Source of the DNA: Senegalimassilia faecalis | Lineage (GTDB): Bacteria > Actinomycetota > Coriobacteriia > Coriobacteriales > Eggerthellaceae | DNA: 64,000 nucleotides | Reading direction: 5' to 3' | Assembly (NCBI RefSeq): GCF_004135645.1 | Contig: NZ_SDPW01000001.1 | Coordinates: 248,001-312,000 of the forward strand | Part shown: piece by piece, positions 3,825-58,154 of the stretch | Layout of the letters: every line of letters begins with the position of its first letter | Numbering within the stretch: the first letter of the stretch is position 1 | Program-made: the position numbers and the translations under genes | Notes under the pieces: generated by a model | What the model was told of the DNA's origin: nothing | The model's input: the letters and a program-made list of their open reading frames with translations, nothing else | Database searches by the model: none

Positions 3825-4194
3825 TGGTGGAGGCGCGGAGAATCGAACTCCGGTCCATACTACATAATCCCCGAGGCTCTACAAGCTTATTCCGTTGTCG
3901 GGATTCGAAGCCTTGCGGTCAACGGACAAACGTAGAGGCTTCTAGTCGGTTCAATCTTTATCGAAGCCATACCGGCCACGTGCTTCGATGCAGTCCCCTA
4001 AAATGACATCGCGCCCGAGCCGGGGACAACCCGGGGTTGACGTGCCAGGTGCGAATTAAGCAGCCATGGCGAGCGCCGGAGCGCTCTGAGAGTTGTTCTT
4101 GCCAATTAACTTGACGGTACCCCTGTTTTACGTGGCGAGGAGACCACGACCTGCTCCTCAGTTCAAACATACCATGTCGAAACCAGTCGCCCCC
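3825..4194 (-). ncRNA. ssrA: tmRNA (transfer-messenger RNA)
   Basis: One-piece tmRNA of 370 bases that, with SmpB, rescues stalled ribosomes and tags the unfinished protein for proteolysis. The 5' end GGGGGCGAC and 3' end CGCCTCCACCA form a 7-bp acceptor stem with the G-U third pair read by alanyl-tRNA synthetase; CCA is encoded. The T-arm region GGAGTTCGATTCTCC and the 5' tract GGTTTCGACATGGT are typical. The tag frame runs from GGC at 4103 to TAA at 4056 and encodes GKNNSQSAPALAMAA. A perfect TTGACA lies at 4240-4245 but no matching -10 is visible, so the promoter is undecided. smpB lies just upstream. Confidence 0.96.
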
Positions 4195-16507: not shown

Positions 16508-16960
16508 CTATTGCTCGGCTTTCGCCATGACGTATTTCTGCGTGGCCGTGGCCGCAACCTTATCGCCCACGAGCGCCTCCACGTCGGCGACCACCATGCG
16601 CGACGAGTTGCGCGTAATGGTTGCCTTCAGCGTCAGCGTGTCGCCCGGCTGCACCTGGTTGCGGAACTTCGCCTTGTCGATGCCGGCGAAAAATCCCAGC
16701 ACGCCGGGCTCGTCGCGACCCACCAGCGCGCAAAACGACGCCGTCTGCGCCAGCGCCTCCATGATGATGACGCCGGGCAGCACCGGATGGCCGGGGAAAT
16801 GGCCGGCGAACAGCGGCAGCTTAGGGTCAACGTCAAGCTCGGCCGTAATGGAAACGCCCGGCTCGCACGCAACCACGCGGCTCACCCACACAAATGGATC
16901 GCGATGCGGCAGCACCTGCTCGATAACATCGCGCCCACAAGGATAAGAAATGTCCAACAT
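16508..16960 (-). CDS. fabZ: 3-hydroxyacyl-ACP dehydratase FabZ
   Basis: Dehydrates 3-hydroxyacyl-ACP in type II fatty-acid synthesis. The 150 residues are of normal length, with PHRDPFVWVSRV and the catalytic block GHFPGHPVLPGVIIMEALAQ (His and Glu present). Start ATG 16960 has AGGA about 8 bases upstream; an ORF extension of 7 residues has no support. It lies 39 bases before accDA and 250 bases after fabF, with a repeat element between, so it may also have its own promoter. Confidence 0.95.
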   Translation of the reverse strand: MLDISYPCGRDVIEQVLPHRDPFVWVSRVVACEPGVSITAELDVDPKLPLFAGHFPGHPVLPGVIIMEALAQTASFCALVGRDEPGVLGFFAGIDKAKFRNQVQPGDTLTLKATITRNSSRMVVADVEALVGDKVAATATQKYVMAKAEQ

Positions 16961-17055
16961 AGAAGAATTCCTAACCAACAAAATCCCAGGTCAAATACCT
17001 GAGAAGAACCATCGCTTAACCCGCAACCTCGAATGTACGACCCCCAGGTCGCACC

Positions 17056-17208
17056 AAAGTCAGCGAGGGTGCCTGCAGTGCCCTAGATTGTGGGGAACGC
17101 AAGGGCGCCGCGTACTTTGGTACGCAAGCCCTTGGGTTCGCCGCAAGCTGGGGTGCTGCAGGCGGCCACAGCGTCGAGTAGGTCCGGCTGCCGACAGGCA
17201 GACGGAAC
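17056..17208. repeat. Structured foldback repeat, copy A (inside the fab operon)
   Basis: A 153-bp element between fabF and fabZ, starting 3 bases after the fabF stop codon. It shares AAAGTCAGCGAGGG, GGGCGCCGCG, ACGCAAGC and CAGCGTCGAG with copy B at 47207-47357. It folds on itself: GCCTGCAG pairs with CTGCAGGC, CAAGGGC with GCCCTTG, GCGTAC with GTACGC, and CTGCC with GGCAG. No start codon lies inside. The 74 bases on to fabZ hold only small inverted repeats. Confidence 0.75.
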
Positions 17209-17211
17209 CAC

Positions 17212-18492
17212 CTAGAACGGCGAAACAGCAAGAACGGCGTTGTGGCCGCCGAAGCCGAGCGAGTTCGACAGCGCTACTTTCTGAGGGTAGTTCTGCAGCG
17301 GCTCGGACACCACGTTCACGGGGCACTCGGGGTCGGGCTGGGCAAAACCTGCCGTGGGCGGCACGCACTGATTGGCCACCGAAAGCGCGGTGACCACGGC
17401 CTCAACCGCGCCGGCGACACCCAGCGTGTGGCCCAGCGAGCCCTTCACCGACGTGATGGGAATCTTGCGCCCCAGCTCATCGCCAGCAAGCGCGATGAGC
17501 GCCGCAGCCTCGGTGGCGTCGTTGGCATGCGTGGACGTGCCATGCGCGTTCACGTGCCCCAGGTCGGCCACGGTGAAACCGCCCTCGTCAAGCGCCTGCT
17601 GCATGGCGCGCTGGATGCCCTCGCCAGTGGGGTTCGGCGCCGTCATGTGGTAAGCGTCGCCCGTCGAGCCGAAACCGGTGATCTCGGCGATGGGCTTCGC
17701 ACCGCGCGCCAGCGCATGCTCCAGCGATTCCAGCACCAGCACCGCGCCGCCTTCGCCCGCCACGAAACCGCTGCGGCGCACGTCGAACGGCATGGACGCC
17801 GCCTGCGGGTCCTCGGCATGCGTCAGAGCACCAAGGTTCGTGAAGCCCGCGATGCAGATGGGGTTCACCGATTCCTCGGAGCCGCCGGCAAGCGCCAGGT
17901 CGCAATAGCCGTGGCGGATGGAGCGCACGGCCGAGCCGATGTTGTGCGCGCCGGTGGCACACGCGGTGGACACGTCGATGCACTCGCCGCGCATGCCGTA
18001 GCGGATGGCGATGTGGCCGGCGGCCATGTTGCCGATCATCGTGGGGATGAACAGCGGGTTCACGCGCTTAGGACCCTTCTCGTCAAGCGTGCGGAAACCC
18101 TTTTGCAGCTCGTCGATGCCGCCGATGCCCGCGCCGAACACCACCGCGGCGCGCGTGGGGTCCTCGTCGTCCATGTTGACGCCCGCCTGCGCCATGGCCT
18201 CGTCGGCGGCGATGAGCGCGTACTGCACGAAGCGCTCGAAGCGGCGCGCCTCCTTCTTCGTCAAGCCATATTCCGTGGCGTCGAAATCGGGCACCTCGGC
18301 CGCGATGCGCACCTCGTAGTCGCTTGCATCGAAGTGCGTGATGGGGCGCACGCAGCAGCGCTTGCCCATGACGGCATCCCACAGCGCCTGAACGCCCACG
18401 CCCGCCGGCGTGACGGCGCCCATGCCCGTGATGACGACGCGGTGCGTGCCGTCCGCGCGCCTGACTTGCGTGTTCGCTACCTGCTCGCTCAT
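17212..18492 (-). CDS. fabF: 3-oxoacyl-ACP synthase II (FabF)
   Basis: Condensing enzyme that elongates acyl-ACP with malonyl-ACP. The 426 residues carry the Cys-His-His triad in STACATGAHNIG, VNAHGTSTHAND and KGSLGHTLGVAG. The N-terminal MSEQVANTQVRRADGTHR is a slightly longer lead than usual before VVITGMGAVTPAG. The ATG overlaps the fabG stop as ATGA. No fabH is seen in the window. Confidence 0.97.
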   Translation of the reverse strand: MSEQVANTQVRRADGTHRVVITGMGAVTPAGVGVQALWDAVMGKRCCVRPITHFDASDYEVRIAAEVPDFDATEYGLTKKEARRFERFVQYALIAADEAMAQAGVNMDDEDPTRAAVVFGAGIGGIDELQKGFRTLDEKGPKRVNPLFIPTMIGNMAAGHIAIRYGMRGECIDVSTACATGAHNIGSAVRSIRHGYCDLALAGGSEESVNPICIAGFTNLGALTHAEDPQAASMPFDVRRSGFVAGEGGAVLVLESLEHALARGAKPIAEITGFGSTGDAYHMTAPNPTGEGIQRAMQQALDEGGFTVADLGHVNAHGTSTHANDATEAAALIALAGDELGRKIPITSVKGSLGHTLGVAGAVEAVVTALSVANQCVPPTAGFAQPDPECPVNVVSEPLQNYPQKVALSNSLGFGGHNAVLAVSPF

Positions 18493-47093: not shown

Positions 47094-47156
47094 ACGTCAG
47101 AAAGCCCGCAGCACGAAAAAGGGGCCGCCATTTGCCAGGCTTTCGCGCACGCCACA

Positions 47157-47186
47157 AAAATAGCCGCCCCGTAAGGCGGCTATTTT
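47157..47186. terminator. Bidirectional terminator downstream of metNI
   Basis: AAAATAGCCGCC and GGCGGCTATTTT form a perfect 12-bp stem with a 6-base loop and T-runs on both strands. On the minus strand it ends the metN-metI transcript after repeat copy B. Confidence 0.9.
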
Positions 47187-47206
47187 AACCCGTCGCAGAT
47201 AGCGCT

Positions 47207-47357
47207 AAAGTCAGCGAGGGCCGCTGCGGTGCGTCGTATTCGCGGGTTCGCGAGGGCGCCGCGCACTTCGGCACGCAAGCTCTCGAGAGCGTGCGAAGAC
47301 GGCGTGCCACGGCGGCCCACAGCGTCGAGCAAATTCGTTTGCCGGCAGGCAAACGAA
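47207..47357. repeat. Structured foldback repeat, copy B (after metI)
   Basis: A 151-bp relative of the element at 17056-17208, beginning 2 bases after the metI stop. Its flanking hairpin TTCGTTTGCC/GGCAAACGAA is a perfect 10-bp stem where copy A has a different but still pairing sequence. The conserved core (CAGCGTCGAG, GGGCGCCGCG, ACGCAAGC, GTCAGCGAGGG) keeps the same order and spacing. Confidence 0.75.
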
Positions 47358-47359
47358 AC

Positions 47360-48037
47360 TTAGCGGATGCGCTTGTCGACTTTGCGCGCCACGAAGTCGC
47401 CGATGGACTGGAACACCTGCACCAGCACGACGCACAGCACGATGGACGCGATCATCACGTCGCCAAGGTAGCGCTGGTAGCCGTAGCGGATAGCGATGTC
47501 GCCGATGCCGCCCGCGCCCACGGCGCCGGCCATGGCCGTGTAGCCGAACAGCGTAATGACGGTGATGGATGCGCCGCGCACCAGCGACGGCAGGCTTTCG
47601 CGCAGCATGACCTTCACCACGATCTGCCACGTGTTCGCGCCGAAGCTTTGCGCCGCTTCCACCAGGCCACCGTCAACCTCGGCCAGGCTTTGCTCCACCA
47701 TGCGGCCAACAAACGGGATGGCCGCCACCGTCAGCGGCACGATGGCGCCGGGAACGCCCAGCGACGTGCCAACCACCAAGCGCGTGAACGGGATGATGGC
47801 CACCAGCAGGATGATGAACGGGATGGAGCGGCCGATGTTCACGATCCAGCCGAGCACCGTGTTCAGCGCGCGGTGCGGGCGCAGGCCGTCTTTGGCCGTG
47901 ACCACCAACAGTACGCCCAGCGGCACGCCGATGACGTATGCGAAGAACGTGGACACGATGGTCATGACAATCGTGTCCCACGTGCCCTGCGCGAACAGCG
48001 CGCCGTATTGGGCGATGAAGTTGCTGATGTAATCCAT
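47360..48037 (-). CDS. metI: MetI-type ABC transporter permease
   Basis: Permease of the methionine uptake family, 225 residues with about five or six membrane helices and the coupling loop EVDGGLVEAAQSFGANTWQI. GYTAMAGAVGAGGIGDIAIRYGY is highly typical of MetI. It directly follows metN with no gap. No metQ binding-protein gene is present in the window, so the ligand (methionine or another compound) is not proven. Confidence 0.9.
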   Translation of the reverse strand: MDYISNFIAQYGALFAQGTWDTIVMTIVSTFFAYVIGVPLGVLLVVTAKDGLRPHRALNTVLGWIVNIGRSIPFIILLVAIIPFTRLVVGTSLGVPGAIVPLTVAAIPFVGRMVEQSLAEVDGGLVEAAQSFGANTWQIVVKVMLRESLPSLVRGASITVITLFGYTAMAGAVGAGGIGDIAIRYGYQRYLGDVMIASIVLCVVLVQVFQSIGDFVARKVDKRIR

Positions 48038-57838: not shown

Positions 57839-57913
57839 TGGTGGGCCCGCCCGGATTCGAACCGAGAACCAAAGGATTATGAGTCCCCTGCTCCACCGTT
57901 GAGCTACAGGCCC
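57839..57913 (-). tRNA. tRNA with CAU anticodon, probably tRNA-Ile2
   Basis: A 75-base tRNA with encoded CCA. The acceptor GGGCCTG pairs with CGGGCCC, the D-arm is GCTC/GAGC and the T-loop is TTCGAAT. The anticodon loop CTCATAA in GACTCATAATC, within AGCAGGGGACTC, resembles E. coli ileX, whose C34 is changed to lysidine. G1-C72 and weak anticodon-stem pairs exclude initiator Met; elongator Met remains possible. Confidence 0.85.
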
Positions 57914-58079: not shown

Positions 58080-58154
58080 TGGTGGTCGCTACAGGATTTG
58101 AACCTGTGACCCCCGCCGTGTGAAGGCGATGCTCTCCCGCTGAGCCAAGCGACC
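58080..58154 (-). tRNA. tRNA-Val (CAC)
   Basis: A 75-base tRNA with encoded CCA. The acceptor GGTCGCT pairs with AGCGACC, and the T-arm is ACAGGTTCAAATCCTGT. The anticodon loop TTCACAC gives anticodon CAC, decoding GUG. Confidence 0.92.

Follow-up and report, generated by a model that had tools for sequence, protein, structure and literature searches.

A foldback repeat family anchored at stop codons, with one copy between fabF and fabZ of Senegalimassilia faecalis, as candidate dispersed mobile DNA

The window analysed here, a 64,000-nucleotide stretch of the Senegalimassilia faecalis genome, holds two copies of a foldback element, A and B, whose parts and neighbours are listed in Table 1. 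The names of the genes beside them are NCBIfam matches, by which FabF, FabZ, MetI and also GlnA were confirmed. Copy A, about 95 nt from fabZ, lies inside the operon, as a preliminary description made from the sequence had proposed. The kinship of the two copies claimed there is equally clear: in a comparison within the window they are 71.5% identical over 165 nt (E 2e-17), and both are matched by a covariance model at these places (genome coordinates G000:C1:265056-265208 and 295207-295359). The inverted repeat on the 3' side of copy B was unlisted by the consensus terminator scan.

Table 1. Window positions of the two element copies, their parts and surrounding features
Feature	Positions	Strand	Basis
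Copy A, foldback element between fabF and fabZ, operon orientation	17056..17208	minus	model match 145.6 bits, E 8.8e-36; sequence
H1 of copy A, 5' hairpin, begins 3 nt past fabF stop (17212-17214)	17182..17208	minus	consensus helix 1
Conserved box 1 of copy A, CTCGACGCTGTGG	17166..17178	minus	columns almost invariant
Long imperfect foldback of copy A; conserved mismatches (C.T, CA/CA, C.T), apical part variable	17070..17165	minus	helix 2; mismatch columns
Conserved box 2 of copy A, CCCTCGCTGACTTT (plus strand: AAAGTCAGCGAGGG)	17056..17069	minus	conserved columns, boundary analysis
fabF, gene upstream of copy A	17212..18492	minus	TIGR03150 518 bits
fabZ, gene downstream of copy A	16508..16981	minus	NF000582 132 bits
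Copy B, foldback element, immediately 3' of metI stop codon	47207..47359	minus	model match 151 bits, E 3.3e-37; sequence
H1 of copy B	47333..47359	minus	sequence and consensus helix
Box 1 of copy B	47317..47329	minus	sequence and conserved columns
Long foldback of copy B	47221..47316	minus	sequence and consensus helix
Box 2 of copy B	47207..47220	minus	sequence and conserved columns
metI, methionine ABC transporter permease, gene upstream of copy B	47360..48037	minus	NF008049 243 bits
Terminator-like inverted repeat (AAAATAGCCGCC..GGCGGCTATTTTT), ~20 nt 3' of copy B, separate from element	47155..47187		direct sequence reading
tmRNA	3825..4194	minus	
tRNA gene	57842..57913	minus	
tRNA gene	58083..58154	minus	

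Read in the direction of the gene, the element consists of a hairpin of about 27 nt that opens with GTTYCG (H1), followed by the box CTCGACGCTGYGG, by a foldback some 96 nt long whose tip is variable, and by the box CCCTCGCTGACTTT. Its length is almost fixed at about 152 nt (mostly 150-155 nt, from GTTYCG to GACTTT), with a sharp 5' boundary and a tapering 3' side. The left flank shows neither conservation nor a conserved tag. Terminal inverted repeats were not recognised, the ends GTTYCG and GACTTT being different, nor were target duplications, and no clean empty site was available. Across 22 copies of the genome, double changes were found in 27 of 38 consensus pairs (6 of 10 in helix 1, which is H1, and 17 of 21 in helix 2), and 95.9% of cells are paired, as against 77.9% after shuffling and 32-43% after sliding, which bears out the earlier remark that the segments between the conserved blocks diverge yet still pair. 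Certain stem positions are nearly fixed as unpaired, in mRNA sense as C.T, CA/CA and C.T mismatches; the conserved irregularities are thus C.A and C.T on the mRNA strand, and G.T and G.A on the opposite one. No U-run follows the element, and no terminator-like site was called within copy A or copy B. Lacking the U-run that follows the GC stem of an intrinsic terminator, the element was rejected as one; a separate terminator-like hairpin is present 3' of copy B. In three genome copies (G000:C1:1471065-1471276, 798274-798484 and 1268733-1268943) the tip contains a further nested repeat, roughly 60 nt long and unrelated to the element, that consists of two GC-rich hairpins, GCGCCCGCTCGGGCGC and GAACAAGCCACTGGCTTGTTC.

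The element had been described as present in two copies, which proved too few. A DNA search followed by a covariance model, built from 22 copies, returned about 30 copies in the 2.75 Mb genome, all of them found by this one model. The model search of genome and class that had been suggested did recover further copies: 121 of 298 genomes of the class carry the element, patchily and with 0 to about 40 copies per genome, and the carriers belong to the window's own family and, mainly, one sister family, whose genus g51 is probably Collinsella. When the phylum was sampled with 396 genomes, matches were confined to genomes of the same order, and a pattern search of named genomes gave only Eggerthellaceae-type records (Gordonibacter, Slackia, Candidatus Aveggerthella and uncultured Coriobacteriaceae). 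Collections of phages, plasmids and viral contigs contained zero matches to the element. The earlier statement that it belongs to no described RNA family holds, as Rfam at gathering score has no match in the window at the element's position, and at a permissive threshold the best result for copy A is a chance match (E 9.6). No published description of such a repeat family in this bacterial group was found in the open literature, most subscription journals lying outside its scope; as far as we could find, the family is undescribed.

The most striking property of the element is its placement, counted for 143 distinct copies with an approximate codon-usage gene caller, whose gene calls are likewise approximate. 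The upstream gene runs in the same direction in 128 of the 143 copies. Among 107 copies with a clean gap, 98 start at -1 to +7 nt from the upstream stop, whereas uniform placement would expect 15.2, and only one lies equally close to the downstream gene. A further 16 copies have the stop codon in or near H1. Fourteen copies precede a convergent gene, with 15 to 1261 nt of room behind the element, and in 13 of them it begins within -1 to +4 nt of the upstream stop. Since this spacing holds even where a convergent gene leaves as much as 1261 nt free, a mere tolerance of insertions in short operon spacers was rejected. Tolerance alone is insufficient: either insertion is drawn to the ends of translation, or only copies at these ends are useful or harmless. 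The phase after the stop is random (38/32/29), and an element for stop-codon readthrough was rejected because, with all three phases present, no common extension is possible. A preference for UAG stops was rejected as well, the stops being like those of other genes (TAG:TAA p=1) with TGA somewhat rarer (p=0.01).

A minority of copies lie within genes. Eleven were called as sense intragenic, most of them in one reading frame with a common peptide (like VPPACQPxEPADAAA..RTEVR..ISGTA..LADV), and some of the others lie at gene ends only. Clear in-frame hosts are PriA, an M18 aminopeptidase and a TauE-type exporter; in the aminopeptidase, the in-frame copy splits the model match around residues 200-251. 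Two copies lie antisense within genes. In four antisense copies, L190, L201, L234 and L238, an ATG follows the element within a few bases, and the end of H1 (GGAAC, GGAG) may act there as a ribosome-binding site.

The history of individual sites was followed across genera. Between fabF and fabZ, the window genome and genomes G024, G066 and G077 carry an intact element, G002 and G061 keep only remnants of it, G005 and G028 have other foldbacks in its place, and others lack it and have a short spacer. Long foldbacks unrelated to the element stand directly 3' of the same stops in this spacer (L129 in G005, L134 in G028) and in that between gyrB and gyrA (L356 in G161, L349 in G270). In all, 23 genes with 64 copies are sites shared between genera, for instance after frr, efp, ffh and rpmB; given about 30 copies spread over more than 2000 genes, few such sites would be expected by chance. 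Several same-site pairs are 84-96% identical in the element, compared with 52-79% at fourfold sites of the gene, and the spacer behind them is random; other same-site pairs are no closer than random copies. Because only part of them are closer than random pairs, same-site copies were rejected as simple orthologues. In G002, copies at two different genes match at 98.7% over a stretch running exactly from GTT to about GACTTTTAC, and their flanks are unrelated. Both genes carry elements in other genera too, so gene conversion could explain this pair. Long retention and copying between sites therefore both occur, the former visible in alike same-site pairs beside a random spacer and the latter in the G002 pair. 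At gyrB the empty sites look like deletions, and no empty site was close enough to reveal an exact insertion junction. The gyrB-gyrA spacer also holds, directly 3' of the gyrB stop, a hairpin-only copy (L339, G173) that is the exact reverse complement of L341 and L342 in two close relatives (G247, G227) with the same flanks, which amounts to an inversion in place.

The preliminary description favoured an RNA element acting on fabF and fabZ. In its general form, this reading takes the element as a functional 3'-untranslated or intercistronic RNA, transcribed along with the upstream gene, whose hairpins would protect that gene's mRNA against 3' exonucleases or be cut by RNase III, and so set the ratio of fabF to fabZ mRNA, much as has been considered for YPAL, NEMIS and REP. 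The single orientation and the tight link to stop codons would be natural for such an RNA, the terminator-like hairpin 3' of copy B suggests that copy B lies inside a transcript, and YPAL offers a precedent (PMC2229807). Retention at the same gene across genera beside a randomised spacer is also in its favour. Same-site comparisons gave 117 compensated, 31 wobble and 75 broken pairs (counts that are not independent events), and the excess of compensated over broken pairs points the same way, as does the very low folding energy of the mRNA strand. On the other hand, the element follows about 30 unrelated genes in the genome, with no obvious common function among the upstream genes; it is intact, decayed or empty at the fabF site in related genera and missing or decayed there in many relatives; and copies within proteins, in frame, also speak against it.

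The substitution pattern in the stems does not resemble that of selection on the mRNA strand. Changes on that strand gave wobble pairs and A.C in nearly equal numbers (211 to 192, 1.1:1), whereas RNase P RNA of the same bacterial family, treated with the same script, showed a clear wobble preference (150 to 23, 6.5:1). When only pairs supported on both strands are counted, wobble stands at 113 to 169 A.C, a slight excess that favours the opposite strand. Arm swaps (GC to CG, AT to TA) make up a 0.44 share of the double changes in close pairs, as against 0.17 in RNase P. Furthermore, 128 of 137 copies (131 when DNA parameters are used) have the more stable fold on the opposite strand, since the irregularities conserved as C.A and C.T in the message turn into G.T and G.A on it. 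In L123/L125 (Gordonibacter; TATACCCCGATCTGACGATCGGGGTATA) and in L230 (G028, at a gene for a glyceraldehyde-phosphate-dehydrogenase-like protein), H1 pairs the last codons of the host gene with a newly made complementary arm, and its loop contains the stop codon. Arm changes of this sort are known from the literature to arise by template switching (PMC8794818), and an H1 rebuilt from host codons is the footprint expected of it. Inversion of whole hairpins was rejected as the source of arm swaps in full-length copies, since none of 249 similar pairs is inverted and one hairpin-only copy alone is. From the lack of wobble preference, the excess of arm swaps, the opposite-strand folding and the host-codon arms of H1, we conclude that pairing is kept largely at the DNA level. 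We hold a functional RNA, the chief rival reading, to be possible but rather doubtful as the main explanation. The case carries a caution, as covariation on this scale would pass as proof of a structured RNA, yet the wobble signature of RNA is absent here and the covariation is better explained at the DNA level.

If arms can be copied from each other, foldbacks might also arise at gene ends again and again by template switching, with no mobility at all. The H1 arms copied from host codons (L230, L123), the excess of arm swaps and the unrelated foldbacks at the same stops in other species are all consistent with this. The boxes, boundaries and tip types common to unrelated loci require common descent, however. 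The fixed mismatches argue for recognition of the fold, which template switching by itself would not account for. Independent formation is for these reasons most improbable.

We consider it somewhat probable that copies A and B are old, dispersed, non-autonomous mobile foldback DNA, with pairing kept at the DNA level and any effect on fabF and fabZ secondary. The copy number, the patchy distribution, the sharp 5' boundary, the placement, the near-identical G002 pair, the in-frame copies, the stem changes, the rebuilt H1 arms and the inverted hairpin-only copy at gyrB all support mobile foldback DNA. A mobile origin of REP or MITE type had been named in the preliminary description as the main alternative; mobility indeed fits better than an RNA element, but the transposase of REPs was not found, since at E<=1 the genome gave no match to Y1 transposase (PF01797), with controls detected. 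No autonomous partner element was found either. Persistence at the same gene across genera beside a randomised spacer suggests some use to the host and counts against mobile foldback DNA, and so do the conserved mismatches, which would not be expected from template switching alone.

As mobile foldback DNA, a discrete unit of about 152 bp (GTTYCG to GACTTT) would have spread, and may occasionally still spread, within one bacterial order. Its substrate form would most likely be a folded DNA strand or a cruciform, and as the conserved irregularities read G.T and G.A on the strand opposite the mRNA of the upstream gene, that strand is presumably the one used. The element would be inserted, or would survive, nearly always at a stop codon and in the sense of the gene, with occasional in-frame copies within genes. 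The complementarity of its arms might be maintained by the needs of mobility together with template-switch copying of one arm from the other. We infer, rather than observe, the DNA strand, the route of recombination and the reason why stop codons are favoured. Once transcribed, copy A must form a strong hairpin in the fabF-fabZ mRNA that may alter the stability of either half as a by-product; an effect on message stability like the one reported for YPAL or NEMIS is plausible.

Two more specific mechanisms deserve mention. It is conceivable, though unlikely in our judgement, that insertion of the mobile element is actively steered, in one orientation, to where translated reading frames end, through a novel enzyme acting on the folded opposite strand and a mechanism that senses the stop of translation, for example because R-loops open the DNA at the point of ribosome release. 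The second is a folded single-strand recombination site like integron attC, in which a tyrosine recombinase would recognise the folded opposite strand and insert the element at gene ends. The attC site is a foldback after a gene, conserved in structure more than in sequence, and its active strand lies opposite the gene. The present element resembles it in standing as a hairpin immediately 3' of a gene, in keeping structure more than sequence, in its 5' GTT and variable tip, in the conserved unpaired features within a stem of otherwise free sequence and in folding better on the strand opposite the gene. It departs from attC in that GTTYCG at the 5' end does not fit the core motif GTTRRRY/RYYYAAC, the length is almost fixed, and copies follow core genes in place, with no cassettes and no array. 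An attC-like site is accordingly very unlikely. Whichever mechanism applies, a repeat anchored at stops in one orientation across a whole order points either to an insertion process able to sense where translation ends or to a 3'-end element common to housekeeping messages.

Among known repeats, YPAL of Yersinia is one of the closest in character. De Gregorio reportedly described YPAL insertion just downstream of stop codons in 2006, a trait shared with the present element, which lies on the transcribed strand just 3' of stops in the 98 of 107 copies counted above. YPAL, also known as RU-2, is about 168 bp long with internal inverted repeats and no TA termini, is abundant between genes, flanks itself with target duplications of 3-26 bp, could influence the stability of upstream transcripts and contains an open reading frame able to fuse in frame (PMC2229807). 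The similar size, internal inverted repeats, intergenic abundance and in-frame fusion were compared by description, not by sequence. The hosts are unrelated, duplications like those of YPAL were not recognised here, and strict orientation with a spacing of -1 to +7 nt is shown for the present element.

Other families share different features. The Rickettsia palindromic elements (RPE) are palindromes of about 150 bp, many of them in frame in unrelated genes with a shared peptide (PMC10969869), and the 11 sense intragenic calls with one conserved peptide in unrelated protein genes recall them, in a comparison again by description rather than sequence; here, however, most copies lie 3' of stops and only about 1 in 10 is intragenic, in a different phylum. 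REP elements (RAYT/GTAG, CGTC) are dispersed palindromes mostly downstream of genes, some supplying the stop codon and some intragenic, and those of the CGTC type also lack a known transposase (PMC3733652). The present foldbacks are likewise dispersed, mostly 3' of genes and sometimes intragenic, with no transposase found, as for CGTC REPs. Yet REPs measure 20-40 bp with a tag at the base of the hairpin, whereas the element has 152 bp, no GTAG and no Y1 transposase. The CGTC type has its motif right at the foot of a stem of 8-9 bp that starts with A-T pairs (PMC3733652), while here CGTC is part of box 1, read on the opposite strand, and lies several bases from the base of H1. Correia/NEMIS repeats are similar in size, form hairpins in mRNA that RNase III can cut and have been reported to undergo inversion of copies (PMC10969869), but they are MITEs with terminal inverted repeats, which were not seen in the present element. 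Because several defining features of YPAL, RPE, REP and Correia are missing or were not recognised here, the element is assigned to none of these groups; it forms a new family that is broadly of their kind and has an unusually strict placement.
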